36,535 bases of DNA from Planctomycetaceae bacterium (GTDB taxonomy: Bacteria; Planctomycetota; Planctomycetia; Pirellulales; Pirellulaceae), in NCBI GenBank assembly GCA_024638965.1, contig JAHEJI010000032.1, positions 1 to 36,535 on the forward strand. Reading direction: 5' to 3'. The notes beneath the pieces are model-generated. The model had not been told where the DNA came from, made no database searches, and saw only the letters and a program-made list of their open reading frames with translations. A program made the position numbers and the translations under genes. Positions 8,167 through 35,831 of this stretch are shown piece after piece. How positions within the stretch are numbered: the stretch's first letter is position 1; every line of letters begins with the position of its first letter.

Positions 8167-11100
8167 ATGACCAAAAGAAAATCTCGAAGACGACAAATTT
8201 CGAAAAAGGCTTTACAAAAAAAGCAGTTCAATCGCTTGCGACAGTCCAAGACGGTCGATTATCAGGTGCTTGAGCCAAGGCAGCTTTTGGCGATTGACAT
8301 CGGAGCTAATTTTTCGGGTGCCCAACTTGGAACCGAATCCAATTCGGTACTTTCTAACGTCAATGGTGACATTGGTCCTTTGAATTATGTTGAAGTCGCG
8401 GAAGGCGCTTTTATCGTTCATGATCGGAGCACCGGAACGCGTGTGCAGCAATTTAGTCTGGACGATTTTTGGTTGTCTGCTGGTGCTTTCATTCCAAATG
8501 GTAACACGACGTCAGATCCGAAGGTCATTTACGATCATCAGTCGGAACGCTGGTTTGCCGCTTCGAACGGTGAAGGCGCTGGAAACTGGATTTACGTTGC
8601 GGTTTCGCGCACATCAGATGCTACCGGCGTTTGGGAGTCGTCTCAATTTGTTGGCGATTCCACCGGCATTCATTTCAACGACGACGTGACTCTTTCGGTT
8701 GACAAAGATGCTGTTTATTTGACGACGAATAATTCGGGACCTTTCGGCGACGACAGCTCGATTTATTCGATTCCCAAGTCTGATCTTTTCTTACAGAACC
8801 CCACGATCACCAACATGAGCCGCTTTGAAGGGCTGGATCCGGGCCAATATGGATCCACCATTCAAGTAGCGGTCAACTTTGAAGATTCGGACGGTAAAGC
8901 GACTGCGATTGCACGAGCCGGACTCGGCGGCGTTATCGTTTATGACATTGTCGGGGCTGACGAGGCGGGGGCGACGCTCACTGAACCGGTGTTCATTAAT
9001 ACGGCGGTTAACGTCCGAGACGCAGATTTCAACGCCGTCGCGGTTGATTTTCCCATGGTCGCAACGCAGCCCAATGATGAGACGGTGATTGTCAATCAAG
9101 ACATCACAGGAACCGTTTACGAATGGAAAGGCTCGCTTTGGGGGGTGATGTCGATAACCTCTAACTTCAACCTCAACCCATTCCCGGAAATCCCGGATGA
9201 TGGTGGCGAGTTCCGAAATGGTATTCTCTGGTTTGAAATTGATGTCAATGAAAAAGTGTTGGTTGAAGGCGAACGTGGGCCAAATGCCAATACCATCTGG
9301 TCTCGTCCTGATTCCGACGAAGTCAGGGAAGTCTTTTTCAATCCCTCAATTGCCGTCAACGAATATGGGATTCTGACCATTCAATACAACAGTGTTGCCC
9401 GCGACTTGCAAGAAGACCCGGGAGTGCTTGGCCGCGGTCACTACATCGGCACGACAGCTGTCGTAGGAGCAGCAACCACCGGGATTGATCGACGAGCCGT
9501 TTTTCATGACGATCCGGTCGTCTTGCAGCCCGGCTTAGAGGATTTTGCTCCTAACTCCGGAGACGTGGAGTTTGGTGAACTCACCGCCGTCCGTGTCGAT
9601 CCATTGAATCCCAATTCGTTCTGGGGTATCTCGCCGTTTGCCGATCTTGGCGACCGCTGGACGACGCAGATTACTCAAATGAACCCGGTTGATCTCGCGC
9701 CATATATCGAAGCGGATAACGAAGATAACATGATTGTGATCTCACCGAAGCCGGAAGATTTTTCCTTGATGCAAGTTGAGATCGATGGTGTGGTGACGGA
9801 CGTTCTTCCATACGAAGTTCTTGGTGCCCCAATCATTATGGGACATGGTGGTGCGGATCATTTCCTGATGGACTACACTCTCGGCGACCCCATCACCCTG
9901 GGCGGATTGGTTCTTGATGGCGGTTTTGGCACGGACGTGGTTGAAACAAATGATCCAAACGGCGGTGCGTATATTGTCAACGAATACGACCATCCGACGT
10001 TTGGTGACACCTATCCTCAGTATTTGGAATACTGGATTTCTCATCCAATGCCGCCTTGGCCAATGGAACTTCCTGGCGATCGCCCGTTCCCGGTAGCGGA
10101 TGAAAATTTCGTTTTGAATACCGATGGTACCTACAACGATCTTTCTGAATTTATCGATGTCGAGGAACTCTGGGGCGGATCCGGTCCTGACTCATTCCGT
10201 TTTGAGAATGGTCATATGATCGGCAACGCACTCGGCTTTGAAGGAGACGACAGGTTTGAGTTTGCGAGTGATGTCATAGGGGATATCACGGGCGACTTGG
10301 TCCCGGATTGGATTGGTGCGATTCTTGGTAGTATCAATGGACACCAGGGCTTTAACACGCTCGATTTTACCGATAGTAACGTGATCGCGTCACTCGAAGT
10401 TTTGGGCGTTTCGGAATACGACAACGGATTCGACGGAAAGTCGCTAAATCCGTTCTTCACATCGTTTATGGGACCAATTGGCGGCGACAATGATACCGAC
10501 CAATGGCGAAATATCAGCTATGTTCGTGGTTCGAATAATATCGATGATTCGCTTCAAGGCATGAATGCTCCGACATTGGTTACGCTTGACGATGAGAATT
10601 CTCTCTATCAGGCGGACGGCGGAACGATGGGCTTCTTCCATTGGGAGAATATCTATGCCTCCGAGTTTGTTGACTATTTCAACGTAATCTCAAACACGCT
10701 GAATCCGGTTCGCTTGTTTGGGCTGGAACACAACGACCATTATCGATTCTCGTCCGATGCGCCTGACTATTTCGGGACCACGGATAATATCGGTGGATTG
10801 ATTTTTGCACTTGGAGGCGAAGGCAGAAACACCTTGACGGCCAGTAATTTCGCTGGATCGCAAACGGATATCCTTGTCTTGTCCCAGCGAATTTCGGGAA
10901 TGGGTGAGATCGTTTACAACGCCTTCGGCGAAAACGGTGTGAATGGAACATTTGACTTGACCATATTTACTTCACAGTTTGACGATTTCCTTCGTATCCA
11001 TTCGTTTGATCAGGACAATACCATGGTCGTTCGGTCGTTCCGTGGAGATGATCTATATTCGATCGAGGATTTGAGTAAGGCCAGCGTCAAGATTTACGGC

Positions 11101-13143
11101 GGCAATGGCGACGATACGTATGTGATTGAGCGAATTCAGGAGGTTGACTTTCGCAACCTTGAGATCTTCGACAGCATCGATGCTGAACATGATCTAGTCA
11201 CTTTGGCCGGTACGATTCTGGATGAACTTTGGGTGATTGATAATCAAACATTCGAAGACCTCACCGTGGCATTCGAAGGGATCGAAAGGTTTGGTATCGA
11301 CGGACGCGGTGGTGACGATACCTTCCACCTTCAAGAATCCATTTACGAGCTCGTCCTCGTCGGTGGTGATGGCGACGATGTCTTTAACGTCTCGTCGGAC
11401 GCACCTTTTAATTCGGGAACCGTCGGCGGAATCTTGAAATCGGTTGAGATTGAGGCTGGTACCGGAACCAATGCACTCACGATTGCTAACCCGACGGGCG
11501 TTGGCGGAACCATCGACCTGGGTGTTGACAGTATCGTAGGCCTTTTGCCGGCGCCTCTCGTGTTCACTGCCGCCGGTGGTAACTTTGCGGCGATTGACAA
11601 TCGTCTAACCGGCATTCGAATCACGGGTTCAGATGCCGACGGTGACGAATTTAACGTAACTGGTCTTTACGAAGACAATGACCTGCTGATTAGCACCCTG
11701 GGGGGTGATGATCGCATTATCATCCCTGCGGAAGTTGCCGGCGACGTCATACTTGACGGTGGTGACGATTCAGATATCTACCAGATCTCGTTCGTGGGTG
11801 GTGGAAATCGGCAAATTTCCATCAGCGATTTTGGTCTCGGAGGACTGAACCGAGCCGAGTTTTACGGAACTGACGATGACGAAGTGATTACCGTGAGCAA
11901 CTTTGAGGTCGAGCGATTTGATGAAACGGTTGAGATGAACGGCGCGTTTGGATTTATCGGCGTCGAGTCGTATGCGGGTAATGATCAGCTGTCAATTGCG
12001 AACACGCTAGGCGCGCAAAACCGCCTCCTGGCGGGACCTGGTAACGACACGATTACGATCAGCGGAACCGACAACGTCGATGGTTTGCAACTATTCGGCG
12101 ATGAGGGTAACGATGTGTTCTACTTCCTCGATATTGATCCTGATACTTTCACTCGCGGAACCGGTGGTGATGGCGACGATGTCTATATCGTTCGCCCGTC
12201 CGCATTCGGTGATATGGTCCTCGACGGTGAAGAAGATTGGGACACTTACCACATCGACCTCGTGGGTAGCGGAAACCGCAATGTTGATACTCGCGATTCG
12301 GGGATTTCTGGATTTGATAAGACGATCATCACTGGAACACCCACCGGAGACGTGATTGACATTCGGGCGAAGCGAGTCTTTTCTGCGATGGAACGAGTCG
12401 TCTACGATGTCGACACCGAACGCCTTGAAGTCCACGGAGAAAATGGTCCGGATACAATTACTTTGTTCTCCAGTCTTGCAAGTCAGACGCAAATTACTTC
12501 GCACTTTGGCCTCGACTACATAACGATTCAAAGCACTGGACCGACTGAGTCTATTGATATTGATTTGGGTTCTGGCGACGACACGATCGTCGTGAAATCA
12601 ACTAAAAGCCAGTCGACAACAACCATCGCCGGTCAAGAAGGTGATGACACGTTCCACATTGGTTCCACCCCGGAAAACTTTGGTCGGCTGGGACGAATTC
12701 GCGGTCCCGTTTCCATCACGGGTGGTGAGAATTCCTTCGGTGGTGAAGACATTATCATGGTGAACGACAAAGGATCATTAGGTTCCTTCGGCTACCATAT
12801 CGGTCCTGGTGCGATTGGCTGGACGAGTGGTCCTGCCGCTGATGGAAACCTCTTGTTCGCGGGAATCAGTTTTGATTCGGCCATTGAAATGGCACGACTT
12901 GATGGGACTCCGTTTGCAAATAGATTCGACGTGACGCCAAGTCAGGACACTCGGTTGTTTATTCATGGTAATTTGCCAGGATCGGGCGAAGCGACCAAAG
13001 ACACCATTTATCTTCATGAAGCGGCACTACATGGGGCTAATTTGACGATTACTGATCAGGCATTTGGCGAAGGCTTCTGGGACTTCACCGATGGCAGCGA
13101 AATTGTCGAATTCTCGAGCATTGAAGCTGTTTTTGAAGTCTAG
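8167..13143 (+). CDS. Giant LEPR-XLL surface protein 1
   Basis: 1658 residues. The first ~30 residues are almost purely Lys/Arg/Gln/Ser (TKRKSRRRQISKKALQKK), followed by YQVLEPRQLLA. This is the LEPR-XLL motif (LEPR at 35-38) found at the N-terminus of very large surface proteins in planctomycetes and related phyla. Residues ~45-510 form a beta-propeller-like region (FNDDVTLSVDKDAVYLTTNN, SIYSIPKSDLF, FFNPSIAVNEYGILTIQYN). The rest is a long series of Gly/Asp-rich turns (GGDGDDVFNVSSDAP, GGNGDDTYVIE, GGDGDDVYIV) resembling degenerate RTX calcium-binding repeats, which suggests a Ca-stabilised beta-solenoid. No classical signal peptide or C-terminal anchor is visible. SD is weak (GAAAG). It is paralogous to the gene at 31704 across nearly its whole length. 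The likely role is cell-surface architecture or adhesion; that is inference. Confidence 0.85.
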   Translation: MTKRKSRRRQISKKALQKKQFNRLRQSKTVDYQVLEPRQLLAIDIGANFSGAQLGTESNSVLSNVNGDIGPLNYVEVAEGAFIVHDRSTGTRVQQFSLDDFWLSAGAFIPNGNTTSDPKVIYDHQSERWFAASNGEGAGNWIYVAVSRTSDATGVWESSQFVGDSTGIHFNDDVTLSVDKDAVYLTTNNSGPFGDDSSIYSIPKSDLFLQNPTITNMSRFEGLDPGQYGSTIQVAVNFEDSDGKATAIARAGLGGVIVYDIVGADEAGATLTEPVFINTAVNVRDADFNAVAVDFPMVATQPNDETVIVNQDITGTVYEWKGSLWGVMSITSNFNLNPFPEIPDDGGEFRNGILWFEIDVNEKVLVEGERGPNANTIWSRPDSDEVREVFFNPSIAVNEYGILTIQYNSVARDLQEDPGVLGRGHYIGTTAVVGAATTGIDRRAVFHDDPVVLQPGLEDFAPNSGDVEFGELTAVRVDPLNPNSFWGISPFADLGDRWTTQITQMNPVDLAPYIEADNEDNMIVISPKPEDFSLMQVEIDGVVTDVLPYEVLGAPIIMGHGGADHFLMDYTLGDPITLGGLVLDGGFGTDVVETNDPNGGAYIVNEYDHPTFGDTYPQYLEYWISHPMPPWPMELPGDRPFPVADENFVLNTDGTYNDLSEFIDVEELWGGSGPDSFRFENGHMIGNALGFEGDDRFEFASDVIGDITGDLVPDWIGAILGSINGHQGFNTLDFTDSNVIASLEVLGVSEYDNGFDGKSLNPFFTSFMGPIGGDNDTDQWRNISYVRGSNNIDDSLQGMNAPTLVTLDDENSLYQADGGTMGFFHWENIYASEFVDYFNVISNTLNPVRLFGLEHNDHYRFSSDAPDYFGTTDNIGGLIFALGGEGRNTLTASNFAGSQTDILVLSQRISGMGEIVYNAFGENGVNGTFDLTIFTSQFDDFLRIHSFDQDNTMVVRSFRGDDLYSIEDLSKASVKIYGGNGDDTYVIERIQEVDFRNLEIFDSIDAEHDLVTLAGTILDELWVIDNQTFEDLTVAFEGIERFGIDGRGGDDTFHLQESIYELVLVGGDGDDVFNVSSDAPFNSGTVGGILKSVEIEAGTGTNALTIANPTGVGGTIDLGVDSIVGLLPAPLVFTAAGGNFAAIDNRLTGIRITGSDADGDEFNVTGLYEDNDLLISTLGGDDRIIIPAEVAGDVILDGGDDSDIYQISFVGGGNRQISISDFGLGGLNRAEFYGTDDDEVITVSNFEVERFDETVEMNGAFGFIGVESYAGNDQLSIANTLGAQNRLLAGPGNDTITISGTDNVDGLQLFGDEGNDVFYFLDIDPDTFTRGTGGDGDDVYIVRPSAFGDMVLDGEEDWDTYHIDLVGSGNRNVDTRDSGISGFDKTIITGTPTGDVIDIRAKRVFSAMERVVYDVDTERLEVHGENGPDTITLFSSLASQTQITSHFGLDYITIQSTGPTESIDIDLGSGDDTIVVKSTKSQSTTTIAGQEGDDTFHIGSTPENFGRLGRIRGPVSITGGENSFGGEDIIMVNDKGSLGSFGYHIGPGAIGWTSGPAADGNLLFAGISFDSAIEMARLDGTPFANRFDVTPSQDTRLFIHGNLPGSGEATKDTIYLHEAALHGANLTITDQAFGEGFWDFTDGSEIVEFSSIEAVFEV

Positions 13144-13451: not shown

Positions 13452-13482
13452 TTTCTATTTTCATTTCCTATTGGAGGGAAAA

Positions 13483-13857
13483 ATGCGTTACGTGTTAAAT
13501 CTAGTGGCGGTCGCCGCATTTGCGGTCGCAGCCACGCTGATGGTCGGATGCGATACCGCGAAGACCGAAGACACGACGCCAGCCGCAGAAACTGGGACCA
13601 GTAGTACCCAGACGGAAGCTCCTGCTTCCGATGCTCTCGCTGGCAATGTGTCAAAAGTCAGTTTTACAGTTACCGGTATGAACTGACCTACTGGCTGAGG
13701 CAGCAAGATCCGAAAGGCTCTTGCCGAGGTACCGGGTGTATCTGTAGACGAAGTGACTAAAGGTTCTGTAACTTGTTCTGGTGACTTTGATTCGGCTGCC
13801 GTAATTGCGGCAATTGAAGGAGAGGGATTTGGAGCAAAAGTTGCTGATAGCAACTAA
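13483..13857 (+). CDS. HMA-domain lipoprotein with UxxU metal site (candidate double selenoprotein)
   Basis: Read through two TGA codons, this is a 124-residue protein from ATG 13483 (GGAGGG five bases upstream) to TAA 13855-13857. Residues 1-23 are a lipoprotein signal with lipobox LMVGC (Cys23), followed by a Thr/Ala/Glu-rich linker to about residue 55. Residues ~59-122 are a complete heavy-metal-associated (MerP/CopZ/Atx1) domain: VSKVSFTVTGMN, then the metal loop, then GSKIRKALAEVPGVSVDEV and a final strand GFGAKV. The family motif is GMxCxxC; here both Cys positions (68 and 72) are TGA (13684-13686, 13696-13698). Everything downstream is in frame and conserved, and an intrinsic terminator follows, so decay is unlikely and selenocysteine is the simplest reading. 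The predicted role is binding soft metals (Cu, Hg, Ag) or redox chemistry outside the cytoplasm. Standard gene callers would stop at residue 67. The alternative is a pseudogene with two TGA mutations at exactly the Cys codons. Confidence 0.85.
13699..13728 (+). promoter_or_regulatory. Candidate bacterial SECIS element in the HMA gene
   Basis: GCAAGA (13703-13708) pairs with UCUUGC (13719-13724). After an unpaired U (13709, opposite C13718), CC (13710-13711) pairs with GG (13716-13717) and closes a GAAA loop (13712-13715). The loop begins 26 bases after the first TGA and 14 after the second. Bacterial SECIS elements lie just inside the coding sequence after UGA, and the E. coli fdhF element has a bulged U below a short stem with a G-containing loop. 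The layout here resembles that. Outer pairing CUGG (13691-13694) with CCGG (13732-13735) is possible. One hairpin would have to serve two UGA codons. Confidence 0.5.
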
Positions 13858-13882: not shown

Positions 13883-13911
13883 AAACGGCTCGTTTTCGAG
13901 CCGTTTTTTTT
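13883..13911 (+). terminator. Intrinsic terminator of the HMA gene
   Basis: Perfect stem AAACGGCTCG / CGAGCCGTTT with a TTTT loop and a run of eight Ts, 26 bases after the TAA at 13857. Its presence shows the transcript is meant to run through both TGA codons. Confidence 0.95.
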
Positions 13912-31174: not shown

Positions 31175-31703
31175 GGGAATTTCTGCGACGTGCGGTGTTC
31201 GCTTGGCAATATAACCTACACTCCGAAACCAGAAAGATGTGCGTTGACCTAAAAGTCCATGGTCAAAAGAGTTGCAGTGACCTGGCAGATCGCGCTACTT
31301 GACGCAACTTTTCAAGTTTATTCTAACGACACGGTTGGCCCTGGTTTGTTTTGAGCAGCGTAAGGAGGTCGTGATTCGACAATTCCTGCTTTTCGGTTTT
31401 CGGCTGACGCGAGAGCTGATCGTCGGTAGCGTGGGGATTGAAATGAGTCACATAATTCCAATTCTTCGAATTGAATTTGCTCGCTCAATCGTCTGAAAGC
31501 CGACTAAAAAGTTGATTTTGGACGTTTTTTCGTGCAACAAATCAAGGCTCTAGCTACTATGAATAGTTAATATCGAACTAACCGATTTTTCGGTTGGATT
31601 CCCAATCACAGGCATAATCATTTACGTAACCTGGAGCAATTTTTGTTCGCTCGATAGCCGATCCACGGCAATGTCGATCTGAATCATTGAATTGAGGCCT
31701 CGA
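31175..31703. other. Leader region of giant gene 2
   Basis: 529 bases with no gene. A hairpin AACCGA-TTTT-TCGGTT (31580-31595) lies ~110 bases before the start and could be a leader structure. No riboswitch class is recognised. Confidence 0.4.
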
Positions 31704-34700
31704 ATGACTTTCGAATCTACTTCTGAATCACCTGATCCCCGTCGCTCTCGTCGTTCAAAAAACGGTCGTCGCAACAAACGCCAACAAAAATCGGCTCGTC
31801 GAAACCATGCCGAGTATCAAACGTTGGAAGCCAGAATGCTGTTGGCTGTCGAGGTTGGCTTGAACTTTACCGGAAGCATCGGTGGCGTTGATAGCAATCT
31901 GACGCCTCCAGATACAATGGGTGGCGTTGGTCCCAATCATATCGTTGAACTGATCAACGGACGTTACAAAGCATACGATAAATCAGACGGCACCGTATTA
32001 GAGTCCAAAACTCTAAACGATTTTTGGTCGGATGCGGGCGCTGTCGTGCTTTCGACAACATTTGATCCACGGATCGTGTATGACCCAATCGAAAGCCGTT
32101 GGTTTGCCAGTTCAATTGACGGCGGCGCGGGCAATACGATCTTCGTCGGTATCTCCGAAACGGATGATCCAACCGGAACCTGGAGGAGTGTCCAATTTCA
32201 GGGCGATTCCACCGGAGTCGACTTTAATGACTATGACACGTTGTCCGTTGACGCGAATGGAGTTTACCTAGCGACCAATAACTTTGGTCCAACGTTCGAC
32301 GTTTCGATATTCTCCATTCCCAAACGCGATTTGCTGGGCCCGACGCCTTCGATCTTTAGAATGACTCGGTTCGAAAACCTTGACGCCTCCGTGTATGGGA
32401 ATTCGATCCAAGTTGGCTTGGACTACGACGTAAATGCGCGAGGCATCGCGCTCGGAACGTTTTCATCAGGAACGTCCATTGTCCGAACGGATATCGTCGG
32501 ACCATCTGGACCGGGAGCCGGACTCTCGGTACCGGCCGAGATTACGGTTCCGTTTTATGAACAGGCTCCTGAAGGACGTCAACTTGGTGGACGTGGACTC
32601 GAAAACGTTTCGCCTCGATTCACGGGTAACGTCATCCGAAATAATGGCAATCTGTGGGCAGTTCATGCGGTAATGGGAAGCTCTGGAAACTCGGCGGCCC
32701 GTTGGTACAAAATCGACATCGCCACCAACACATTGGCCGATTGGGGAACGATTGAAGATCCGGAAATCGATTATTTGGATCCATCGATTGCGGTGAACGA
32801 CTATGGCGTGATTGCAATCGGCTTCACCGCAACGGGCCCGAACCAATTTCCCAGTGCAGCGGCCACGTTTGGTTACACGGTTAATGGACTGGTAACGCCG
32901 ACGATCGAATTTGGCGAAACCAAAATTCTTCGAGCCGGCTTGGAAGCTTACGACTCAGGCTCTTCTCGCAATCGCTGGGGTGATTACAGCGCGACCCAGG
33001 TTGATCCGGACGATCCGTTTTCATTCTGGACTTTCCAGGAATGGGCTAACACCGGTAGCAACTGGAGCACTCGTATTTCCGAGACCGGTTTGTTTGATGT
33101 GACTCCGACGGTTCGTGCCAATGCGCTTGATAATGACATCATCATTCGCAGCTCACCGATGAACTCGGACTGGGTTGAAGTTTCGATTGACGGGACAGTG
33201 ACGGACATTTTTGAACGGCGATCTCTTACCGGATTAAACGTTGATGCGGCGGACGGCAACGATTCAATCGTCATTGATTATTCATTTGGCGATCCCATGC
33301 CCTTCTCCGGAATCACGGTTCGCGGCGGAGACGGATACGATATCGTGGAAGTTTCTGGTGGAACGGTTGGGCACAACTGGATTGTCAACGGTGACGGCAG
33401 CGGAACGATCGACGGAAACTCGCGGTTCTTCAATTTTGAAGAGCTGATCGGATCGGATAATGCGGATCGCTTTGAGGTTCGTGAAACTGGAACCGATTTG
33501 ATTATTCGAGCCGGCGATGGAAACGACGAATTATTTGTGACTGGCCCAATCGTTGGACAGCTAACCCTGATGGGGGAAGCGGGTGACGATAATTATCGCG
33601 TGCCAATCGAGACCATTACGTCGATAATAATTATTGACAGCATTGGTAGTGAATCGGATGTTTTGACTGCATTTGCGACCAATGGTGATGATGTCATTAC
33701 TCTCAATAACTCGACCGTCTCACTCAACGGCTCAACCACGGTTGACTTCATTGTCTCAGGTGTTGAGGCCGTCGCGATCGATGGGCTTCAAGGGAATGAT
33801 ATTTTCAATATCCAGGCCATCCTCGATCCGTTTACATTCTTTGGCTCGGAGGGCCAGGACTTGTTTAACGTTTCGTCGGATGCTCCAGTCAATCTGGGCA
33901 ATAGCGACAGTCTCAACAACACGTTGAGCATCGATGGTGGTGCAGGCCGAAACAAGTTGGTCGTTTCGGCATTCAGCAGCGACTCAAAAAATGTCGTTGT
34001 TACGGATAACAAGATTACTGGCATTGGAACTTCAGACATAAACTACGTTGCCACGGGTGGCAACTTCGGTCCGGCCGGAGCAGATGCAGGGATCGTTTTG
34101 ATCGGGTCGGATACCGGAGGTGACCAATTCGAAATCGTGTCGTTGCTTGAAGCAAATCGTTTAAGAGTGAATGCGGGCGGCGGAACCGACCGAATGGTCG
34201 TTCGGGGTGGCGTATTTGGCGATGTCGATCTTGACGGACAAGTTGGCTCAGATGTTTACCAAGTCGCCATGGAGGGACTGGGTGGTCGGACGGTGATTGT
34301 GGGCGACACCGGTGGTGGAGATGTCGACCGAGTCGCCGTGACTGTTTCGGATCGCGATGATGTGTTCTCGATTCAGAACGACACGATTCAAATTCTCTCG
34401 GAGCGTTTGGTCACGGGTTTTCAAACTGAAGTACTCGTCGTCAACACGCTCGTTGGAAACGACATTGTCACCGTCAAAAACAACAACGTGGACAACATTC
34501 GAGTCCTTACTGGCGTAGGCGAAGACCGTGTGTCGATTCAAGGAACGCGGGGAATAAAAAATCTTCGTATCGAAACGGGTACTAGCAATGATCAAGTCTC
34601 GGTTGAACGATCAGTTGTGGCAACCTATCTGCTGGTAAACGGAGGAAGTGGCGCGGATACGATCGACGTTCTAAACACCTCGTATGCGTCCGGGCGTTTT

Positions 34701-35831
34701 GACGGGCAGGACGACGCCGATTTGGTGATGGTCGATTTTATTGGTCGTACCAACCGCGTAATCAATGCTCGCGACACAGGCTCGGGAGGAGATGACAATC
34801 TTTTGGTCACAGGGACCGGCGGAATCGACCGCTACATGCTCAGAACGCAGAGTTTGTCCAACCTGGTCGAACGAGTCCTCTTTGACGGAAATACGGAACG
34901 ACTGAACGCGAATCCTGGAAACGGAAACGACATCGTCACGGTATTTGGATCCCTGGCACCAATTACTCAGATCTCGACGGGGCAAGGCGATGATCTGGTC
35001 CAAGTCGAAAGTACGTCAGGAGCCCAATCGCTCCTTATCGAAACCGGGTTTGGTAACGACGATATTAACGTTCGAACAACTTCGACCGGCGCCAGTGTCG
35101 TCCTCCGGGGAGAGGGTGGTAATGACGTTTTCCGAATCGGTTCAACGGCAGCTGAAAACGATGGTAACCTTGGCCGAATTCGCGGTCGCATCCACGTAAA
35201 TGGTGGTGTGTCGGCAATCGAAGATCGTTTGTTGGTGAACGACCGAGGCGCAACAGGTGCATATGATTACTTCGTGTCGTCGACGCAGGTTGTGGACTTG
35301 GGCTCAGCAAGTTCTCTTCCCCGTGACATCTTTGCGGGCGTGTTTCACAATTCGGTGGAGTTTGTTCGAGTTGACGGAACCGATCAACAGAACCAATTCA
35401 ACGTACGACCTGGCGATACGACTCGATTCTACATCGATGGGAACTTGCCTGTGCAGGGTCAGCTGAATGGTCTTCGTGGTGATTACTTGAACCTGCTTGG
35501 TGATGGCAGCGATGGTCGTTGGCTAACGACGGACAACAAGGGTAATGGCGTCTGGCGATTCACTGACGGCACCCAGGACGTCCGTTTCGAAAGTATCGAA
35601 GACACGAACGTGGTTGCAGGCTCAAGATCGAACGGATCAAATAAATCGGGTGACCAGAACGGGCCACAATACATGCGAGTGACAAGTGATACGGCCAATA
35701 ATCCTGCGCTGGCAGGTTCGATTCAACTGGATGATATTCGGGACGCGCTCGAACAGGAACTGGTTTCAGTTCAATCAATGGTTGACGATGTGTTTGCGTC
35801 AGAGCAAGACTTTGGCAGTGACCTTATCTGA
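31704..35831 (+). CDS. Giant LEPR-XLL surface protein 2
   Basis: Start at ATG 31704 (MTFESTSESPDPRRSRRS), with GAGG six bases upstream; a TTG at 31692 is less likely. The product has 1375 residues. It opens with a Arg/Lys/Gln-rich stretch and the degenerate motif YQTLEARMLLA (LEAR at 41-44). Residues ~48-480 are homologous to the first part of protein 1: DFWSDAGAVV, DPRIVYDPIESRWFASS, FQGDSTGVDFNDYDTLSVD and DPSIAVNDYGVIAIGF. Gly/Asp-rich repeats follow (GDGNDELFVTGP, GSEGQDLFNVSSDAP, GGGTDRMVVRGG, NPGNGNDIVTVFG), and a C-terminal module is shared with protein 1 (FRIGSTAAENDGNLGRIRG, VNDRGATGAYDY, RFYIDGNLP, GVWRFTDG). Protein 1 carries a mid-region insert of several hundred residues that this copy lacks; this copy has a ~60-residue polar C-terminal tail. 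Likely secreted or surface-bound. Confidence 0.88.
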   Translation: MTFESTSESPDPRRSRRSKNGRRNKRQQKSARRNHAEYQTLEARMLLAVEVGLNFTGSIGGVDSNLTPPDTMGGVGPNHIVELINGRYKAYDKSDGTVLESKTLNDFWSDAGAVVLSTTFDPRIVYDPIESRWFASSIDGGAGNTIFVGISETDDPTGTWRSVQFQGDSTGVDFNDYDTLSVDANGVYLATNNFGPTFDVSIFSIPKRDLLGPTPSIFRMTRFENLDASVYGNSIQVGLDYDVNARGIALGTFSSGTSIVRTDIVGPSGPGAGLSVPAEITVPFYEQAPEGRQLGGRGLENVSPRFTGNVIRNNGNLWAVHAVMGSSGNSAARWYKIDIATNTLADWGTIEDPEIDYLDPSIAVNDYGVIAIGFTATGPNQFPSAAATFGYTVNGLVTPTIEFGETKILRAGLEAYDSGSSRNRWGDYSATQVDPDDPFSFWTFQEWANTGSNWSTRISETGLFDVTPTVRANALDNDIIIRSSPMNSDWVEVSIDGTVTDIFERRSLTGLNVDAADGNDSIVIDYSFGDPMPFSGITVRGGDGYDIVEVSGGTVGHNWIVNGDGSGTIDGNSRFFNFEELIGSDNADRFEVRETGTDLIIRAGDGNDELFVTGPIVGQLTLMGEAGDDNYRVPIETITSIIIIDSIGSESDVLTAFATNGDDVITLNNSTVSLNGSTTVDFIVSGVEAVAIDGLQGNDIFNIQAILDPFTFFGSEGQDLFNVSSDAPVNLGNSDSLNNTLSIDGGAGRNKLVVSAFSSDSKNVVVTDNKITGIGTSDINYVATGGNFGPAGADAGIVLIGSDTGGDQFEIVSLLEANRLRVNAGGGTDRMVVRGGVFGDVDLDGQVGSDVYQVAMEGLGGRTVIVGDTGGGDVDRVAVTVSDRDDVFSIQNDTIQILSERLVTGFQTEVLVVNTLVGNDIVTVKNNNVDNIRVLTGVGEDRVSIQGTRGIKNLRIETGTSNDQVSVERSVVATYLLVNGGSGADTIDVLNTSYASGRFDGQDDADLVMVDFIGRTNRVINARDTGSGGDDNLLVTGTGGIDRYMLRTQSLSNLVERVLFDGNTERLNANPGNGNDIVTVFGSLAPITQISTGQGDDLVQVESTSGAQSLLIETGFGNDDINVRTTSTGASVVLRGEGGNDVFRIGSTAAENDGNLGRIRGRIHVNGGVSAIEDRLLVNDRGATGAYDYFVSSTQVVDLGSASSLPRDIFAGVFHNSVEFVRVDGTDQQNQFNVRPGDTTRFYIDGNLPVQGQLNGLRGDYLNLLGDGSDGRWLTTDNKGNGVWRFTDGTQDVRFESIEDTNVVAGSRSNGSNKSGDQNGPQYMRVTSDTANNPALAGSIQLDDIRDALEQELVSVQSMVDDVFASEQDFGSDLI

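Follow-up and report, generated by a model that had tools for sequence, protein, structure and literature searches.

A frame at positions 13483-13857 of the forward strand in a 36,535-nucleotide stretch of DNA from a Planctomycetaceae bacterium (hereafter, the window) has two in-frame TGA codons where an HMA domain would carry its metal-binding Cys codons. Is this the gene of a selenoprotein, and what would a pair of selenocysteine (Sec) residues do at such a site? HMA domains bind soft metals through a GMxCxxC motif, and an earlier note on this DNA had proposed a lipoprotein with both Cys ligands replaced by Sec. Judged from sequence comparisons, the frame is almost certainly a selenoprotein gene: homologues with Cys or TGA at the same positions, the presence of selA, selD and a partial selB in the genome, and a covarying hairpin downstream of the TGA codons all support this reading.

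Gene structure and TGA codons in relatives

The gene starts with an ATG located 4 nt downstream of a Shine-Dalgarno sequence, GGAGGG (13473-13478), and comprises 124 codons when TGA is read as Sec. It ends with TAA at 13855-13857, and neither TAA nor TAG occurs in frame before this stop. The readthrough product, a predicted HMA-domain lipoprotein of 124 residues (MRYVLNLV...GMNUPTGUGSKIRKAL...ADSN), has predicted Sec residues at positions 68 (TGA at 13684-13686) and 72 (TGA at 13696-13698). A hydrophobic, signal-like stretch (13483-13551) ends at a lipobox-like VGC, and the HMA domain is encoded by 13663-13830. An intrinsic terminator with a 10-bp stem and a T tail follows at 13883-13906; the whole window has three terminator-like sites versus 1.0 expected from shuffles. 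All elements of the earlier description, i.e., a single open frame with TGA at 13684 and 13696, an HMA domain, a Shine-Dalgarno sequence and a terminator, were confirmed. All of these features lie on the forward strand.

We searched for the family in 99 genomes, including the source genome. Matches were found in 37 genomes, 24 of which were flagged for in-frame TGA. We read 21 of the 24 TGA-bearing genes (the source gene and 20 relatives, leaving out G053, G059 and G068), with start codons chosen by hand and, for L028, L029 and L038, a terminal TGA treated as the stop codon. All 35 internal TGA codons in these 21 frames fall on the two motif positions. The first position is TGA in every frame; the second is TGA in 14 and Cys in 7, alternating between TGA and TGC or TGT, for example between L028 and L029. 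Genomes from five families of the order share TGA at these positions. One relative from a separate record, L023 (an uncultured Pirellulaceae MAG), is 95% identical by tblastn and keeps both TGA codons, with 7 of 125 codons changed relative to the source gene, 3 of them silently; it is the same record as L026 (G024) and was counted once. The spacing is UxxU in L046 and UxxC in L050.

Cys forms also exist. Two lipoproteins, L036 (G052) and L049 (G044), have Cys at both positions in the form CPxxC, and further Cys forms were present among protein-database matches. Homologues thus have either Cys or TGA at the motif positions, which answers one of the checks set by the earlier note. Its argument that two chance nonsense mutations at these codons would be improbable is likewise strengthened, both by L023, which keeps the pair, and by the confinement of all internal TGA codons to the motif. 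Past the second TGA, dN/dS was 0.19-0.49, i.e., below 0.5, in eight hand-picked pairs, where constraint on the RNA may lower dS.

TGA-bearing kin reach other parts of Planctomycetota. A search of 392 genomes of this phylum gave matches in 273 at E 1e-6, a number that is not the size of the family, since many of these matches are long TGA-free frames resembling HMA ATPases. Among the 29 loci read (L106-L134), the first motif position is TGA in 13, and L128 is the sole locus of those 13 with TGA at both. A Paenibacillus locus (L024) was rejected as a relative; it matches residues 1-72 only, mainly in the leader.

The predicted HMA domain and its selenol pair

The motif of the predicted protein is G-M-N-U-P-T-G-U, in which three residues separate the two Sec, against two between the ligands of CxxC. 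Since three codons separate the TGAs, the motif is UxxxU (CxxxC spacing), and the names CxxC and UxxU used in the earlier note were wrong, although its own spelling of the site as TGA-xxx-xxx-xxx-TGA already gave the right spacing. The CxxC ligand spacing of HMA (PF00403) is therefore not that of this protein, and alignments to solved HMA chains place one extra residue inside its motif. With Cys put for Sec, PF00403 matches residues 61-116 with 32.4 bits (Pfam cut-off 24.8). A structural model, also with Cys for Sec and based on 21 sequences, predicts an HMA fold in residues 71-120 (block pLDDT >90). Its strand-helix-strand-strand-helix-strand order is the ferredoxin-like beta-alpha-beta-beta-alpha-beta fold of HMA. 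The whole model has a mean pLDDT of 70.5 and a pTM of 0.51, with low confidence in the leader. The best PDB matches found by Foldseek were a Thermus heavy-metal protein and domains of PacS, ZntA and ATP7B, i.e., Cu/Zn HMA domains, with MerP at rank 10; the match 2roe has a TMt of 0.81 to the model.

In an alignment of 21 rows (A1: 19 TGA members and two Cys forms; L032, a fusion, and L046 were left out), the Met preceding the motif is invariant and the Gly nearly so. Residues G22-C23 are also invariant in these rows, and GC is found in L032 and L046 as well. Otherwise, the segment before the first TGA varies among relatives in length and sequence, and the conserved domain follows that TGA. An invariant Gly-Cys after a hydrophobic stretch suggests that the protein may be lipidated, and it likely sits on an envelope membrane.

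The predicted HMA fold and the invariant Gly-Cys together lead us to prefer an envelope protein that binds soft metals through a selenol pair. Thus, the gene probably encodes an HMA protein with a lipobox-like start, likely at the envelope membrane, whose predicted UxxxU selenocysteines would be inserted with the help of a downstream hairpin. Soft metal ions, for example Cu(I) or Hg(II), would be held by this selenol pair. The Se pair may need a reductant; a DsbD_N-like domain occurs in the chain of one relative.

Metal binding is deduced here from the predicted fold, and the main rival is a redox role, in which the selenol/thiol pair would be a thiol-disulfide (diselenide or selenenylsulfide) oxidoreductase built on an HMA scaffold instead of a metal ligand. 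Several features fit such an enzyme: among the TGA members read, Sec is constant at the first position and the second holds Sec or Cys, a pattern resembling UxxC redox motifs; compared with the CxxC of metal sites, the motif has an additional residue; the DsbD_N-like domain in the same chain of L032 scores 21.2 bits, below the Pfam cut-off of 25; and most selenoproteins of known function are oxidoreductases (PMC2398784). However, the protein passes the HMA cut-off, its predicted fold matches metallochaperones and metal-ATPase domains, the Met before the motif does not vary and the Gly hardly does, and for other families a role of Sec in metal ligation has been proposed (PMC13188914). We regard the redox role as rather unlikely, and metal binding as the preferred function. 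A natural di-selenol on a well-studied soft-metal fold would make the effect of Se-for-S replacement on affinity for Cu(I), Ag(I) and Hg(II), and on redox potential, measurable against natural Cys and mixed Sec/Cys members.

Gene neighborhoods were also inspected and offered no hint of function. No metal-resistance gene was recognized beside the gene in the window, where four neighbors were compared with Pfam, or in 20 neighborhoods of relatives; clusters common to several of these 20 look like housekeeping genes. Three loci of one genus (L091, L093 and L097) have an efflux-like set 0.4-0.5 kb downstream of the HMA gene on the same strand, consisting, by look, of a membrane-fusion-like protein, an ABC ATPase and a permease. 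In L032:889-1893 (G041), the DsbD_N-like domain comes after the UxxxU HMA lipoprotein part within one chain, a possible hint at how the Se pair is reduced. Within the window, the products of 8167-13143 (1658 aa, no Pfam match at E 0.01) and 31692-35831 (1379 aa) look like paralogues, with LEPRQLL/LEARMLL starts and N-terminal parts that are similar by eye.

How does this protein relate to known families? A 2026 review tables NF041115 (UxxU_metal_bind) as a UxxU metal-binding (seleno)protein with two Sec, citing a survey of Olavius symbionts, and also lists Sec forms of a MerT-like protein and of a cation ATPase (PMC13188914). The NF041115 model shares the HMA-like character and the two Sec in the motif, and it is weakly matched by 20 of the 21 aligned members (E up to 0.01). 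It differs in its UxxU spacing and in its 74 positions, compared with UxxxU and 124 residues including a lipobox-like start in our protein, which scores 24.3 bits against a cut-off of 95 (best of 10 other members, 46.7). The selenoprotein model NF045683 (MerT/CopZ fusion-like heavy metal transport selenoprotein) has a similar CopZ/HMA-like part but describes, by its name, a transporter fusion; the score here was 13.4 bits versus a cut-off of 375, and 48.7 for the best other member. MerP (TIGR02052, periplasmic by its model name) and CopZ-type metallochaperones (NF047957) share the HMA fold and the GMxC start of the motif. Both of these families have CxxC and are not known to contain Sec. The protein scores 20.9 bits with the former (cut-off 92.55; best of 10 members, 58.2) and 43.4 with the latter (cut-off 85; best of 10 members, 54.2). 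None of 10 further members reached the cut-off of any NCBIfam model listed for them at E up to 1e-7.

Planctomycete genomes P1 and P2 have Sec machinery and selenoprotein genes, as does the genome studied here; section 17 of that report names FdhA and FmdB, and its main text does not contain the words HMA or heavy metal (PMC4807772). In open-licence PMC literature, searches turned up neither an HMA selenoprotein with UxxxU spacing nor one that is a lipoprotein. The occurrence of Sec in HMA proteins is known, and this family, its UxxxU spacing and its SECIS arrangement were not found described in that literature.

A SECIS-like hairpin downstream of the TGA codons

A codon alignment of the region past the TGAs revealed a segment, (N)TA-CCG-GGT-GTA, that is kept even at silent positions and has pairing bases on both flanks. 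These bases form a 6-bp stem with the loop CGGGU. In the source gene, the hairpin AGGUAC[CGGGU]GUAUCU occupies 13727-13743, and its loop lies 46 nt past the first TGA and 34 nt past the second. We examined it in 17 TGA members representing 16 distinct sequences (alignment A2; left out were L026, with the same hairpin as L025, and L040, L047 and L050), rows that were selected for having the hairpin after the pattern was noticed. All 96 cells were paired, three pairs covary, 23 cells show a double change, and the covariation score is 0.672. The observed numbers of paired cells and double-change cells, and the covariation, were each reached by 0 of 500 shuffles; two of the five hairpin measures were ordinary, being reached by 439 and 148 of the 500. 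Slid stem partners pair in 16-62% of cells. RNAalifold, given a longer alignment of the same 17 members, recovered the same six pairs unprompted. Loop variants are CGGGG in L031 and CGGGA in L046. The relatives set apart (A4: the two Cys forms and L040, L047 and L050) paired in 11 of 30 cells, these three TGA members being without the distal hairpin.

Since the A2 rows were chosen for the hairpin, frames fetched afterwards provide a fairer test. Twelve of 20 such regions had two TGAs; L145 (odd motif) and L146 (CxxC, with TGAs outside the motif) were dropped, and the other 10 frames (L135-L144) were analyzed. The hairpin was at the same place in four of them, three of one genus with the loop CGUGG and one with CGGGA. 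Other frames have hairpins 35-43 nt past the first TGA, and L140 has only a weak one.

Folding energy alone did not reveal a SECIS element: the 57 nt past the TGA gave a z of -0.45 in the window, and values ranged from -2.45 to +0.77 over 23 sequences. Hairpins of TGA forms were only slightly stronger than those in eight Cys forms (one-sided P 0.043). A search of the genome with a hairpin model gave the source gene as the sole match at E <1 (8.1e-4; next 1.6; 150 of 1057 candidates scored), a match that is not independent, since the model contains its sequence. A SECIS element was among the checks set by the earlier note, and a SECIS-like hairpin, conserved through compensatory changes, is present.

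In E. coli formate dehydrogenase, too, the SECIS element has a small apical loop in which position 2 is G and another G comes next. The published rule for bacterial SECIS elements calls for G within the first two positions of the loop, in many cases with G or U next, and a distance from the UGA that is mostly 16-37 nt; some selenoprotein genes deviate from it (PMC13188914). The loop CGGGU and its distance from the second UGA satisfy this rule and share the small apical loop of the consensus; the distance from the first UGA falls outside the range, and here one hairpin is present for two UGAs.

Four members with UGA only at the first position (L029, L031, L034 and L038) retain the far hairpin, and so does L115, with the loop CGUGG. 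Other one-UGA members have a near hairpin, either GGUCU at 25 nt (L123, L124 and L127) or GGU at 20 nt (L040 and L047). An automatic hairpin pick, which sometimes takes another hairpin (e.g., in L029, L032, L037 and L043), gave a median distance of 46 nt in 24 two-UGA frames, including one UxxU frame, versus 25 nt in 27 one-UGA frames, including two UxxC frames (P 0.007). This sample comprised 22 of 23 family frames, 19 of the 29 phylum loci L106-L134 and 18 of 20 later loci.

In the proposed mechanism, SelB with Sec-tRNA would read both UGAs of the gene, and the single downstream hairpin would serve both. It is possible, if somewhat doubtful in this full form, that these genes constitute a family of envelope selenoproteins spread across the planctomycete phylum, with a UxxxU metal site formed by a di-selenol. 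A single SECIS, displaced downstream, would then recode a pair of UGAs separated by 12 nt, acting on the first across 46 nt and thus from beyond accepted SECIS reach. How far a bacterial SECIS element can act could be tested directly on such a gene, in which two UGAs go with one displaced hairpin.

Two additional observations concern these hairpins. L110 (G279), a Cys form with TGT, keeps the 8-bp GGUCU hairpin of L127 (G419) of the same genus, and it is probably a recent Sec-to-Cys change with the SECIS still in place. In one family (L137, L138, L139, L128 and L115), LPWVEE replaces LPGV and the loop CGUGG replaces CGGGU at the same spot, so that the RNA loop and the protein changed together.

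Sec machinery and other readings of the TGA codons

The source genome has selA (574.8 bits; cut-off 267.9), selD (357.3 bits; cut-off 125) and the N-terminal half of selB, 323 codons that run off the contig end (328.9 bits; cut-off 242.25). The selD gene (G000:C267:877-1803, L020) has one in-frame TGA, in ASCAGUAGKIPP, and a hairpin, CGCAC[AGGUU]GUGCG, whose loop starts 31 nt past this TGA. From this TGA, SelD looks like a selenoprotein itself.

A selC gene was not found in the 88.57%-complete source assembly (G000) by a covariance model, by ARAGORN, or by using the gene of a relative as a DNA probe, the last without a positive control. There were 11 sub-threshold Rfam matches, and the 8 checked by ARAGORN coincide with other tRNAs; the selA locus (L018) contains no tRNA. 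In relatives, tRNA-Sec does not adjoin selB at any of 30 loci and adjoins selA at one, to which coordinates add selA adjacency in G080 and G089, so the truncation of selB at a contig end is no explanation for the absence of selC. With regard to the machinery genes listed for checking in the earlier note, selA, selD and half of selB were present, whereas selC was not found in this assembly.

Across the 99 genomes, tRNA-Sec of at least 60 bits, a line set in this analysis, occurs in 60, and at Rfam's own 47 bits in 68. ARAGORN named tRNA-Sec (UCA) in all 10 loci given to it from the 30. Genomes with the TGA form were enriched in these components in comparisons that ignore kinship. By Fisher tests, tRNA-Sec at 60 bits was present in 21 of 24 TGA genomes versus 39 of 75 others (P 0.0014), selA above cut-off in 21 of 24 versus 41 of 75 (P 0.0028), and either one in 23 of 24 versus 45 of 75 (P 0.0004); at 47 bits, tRNA-Sec was found in 21 of 24 versus 47 of 75 (P 0.017). 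In many Sec-competent relatives, the same 45 genomes, no TGA form was found. Among the TGA genomes, G041 has selA and no clear tRNA-Sec, and G002 and G085 have tRNA-Sec and no selA above cut-off. G024, the sole TGA genome with neither, has a completeness of 71%, and a fragment of selA lies at one of its contig edges. As for the genomes with the Cys forms, G052 has neither selA above cut-off nor tRNA-Sec, and G044 has a selA match of 354 bits and no tRNA-Sec of 60 bits.

Could the TGA codons be read otherwise? The first TGA might serve as a regulated stop, making a 67-residue lipoprotein the chief product and restricting synthesis of the HMA domain to conditions of abundant selenium. Recoding of UGA is indeed partial, at 30-40% in vivo in one study (PMC4513850), and a serial UGA pair would be expected to cut the yield further. 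On the other hand, such a chief product would correspond to the part that is variable among relatives, with the conserved domain placed after the TGA, and we consider this possibility very unlikely. More improbable still, to an extreme degree, is a decayed gene, i.e., an ordinary Cys HMA lipoprotein hit by two nonsense mutations and now a pseudogene or a 67-residue stub. In the protein database, the closest relatives were indeed represented solely by stubs that stop at the first TGA, P0002 (68 aa) and P0020 (67 aa), but decay is at odds with the retention of TGA at the same positions across five families, with the dN/dS values past the TGAs, with the lack of TAA or TAG before the terminal stop, and with the covarying hairpin. 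With Sec decoding as the preferred reading, the family would add a selenoprotein group whose nearest database entries are such stubs. Finally, the chance that TGA is a sense codon for Trp or Gly in this lineage is vanishingly small: in P0007, a database protein of 119 aa that resembles L047, W occupies the first motif position, from TGA through another table or from a true TGG, but TGA ends 8 of the 18 window ORFs listed as plausible genes, and the internal TGAs of relatives occur at Cys positions only.
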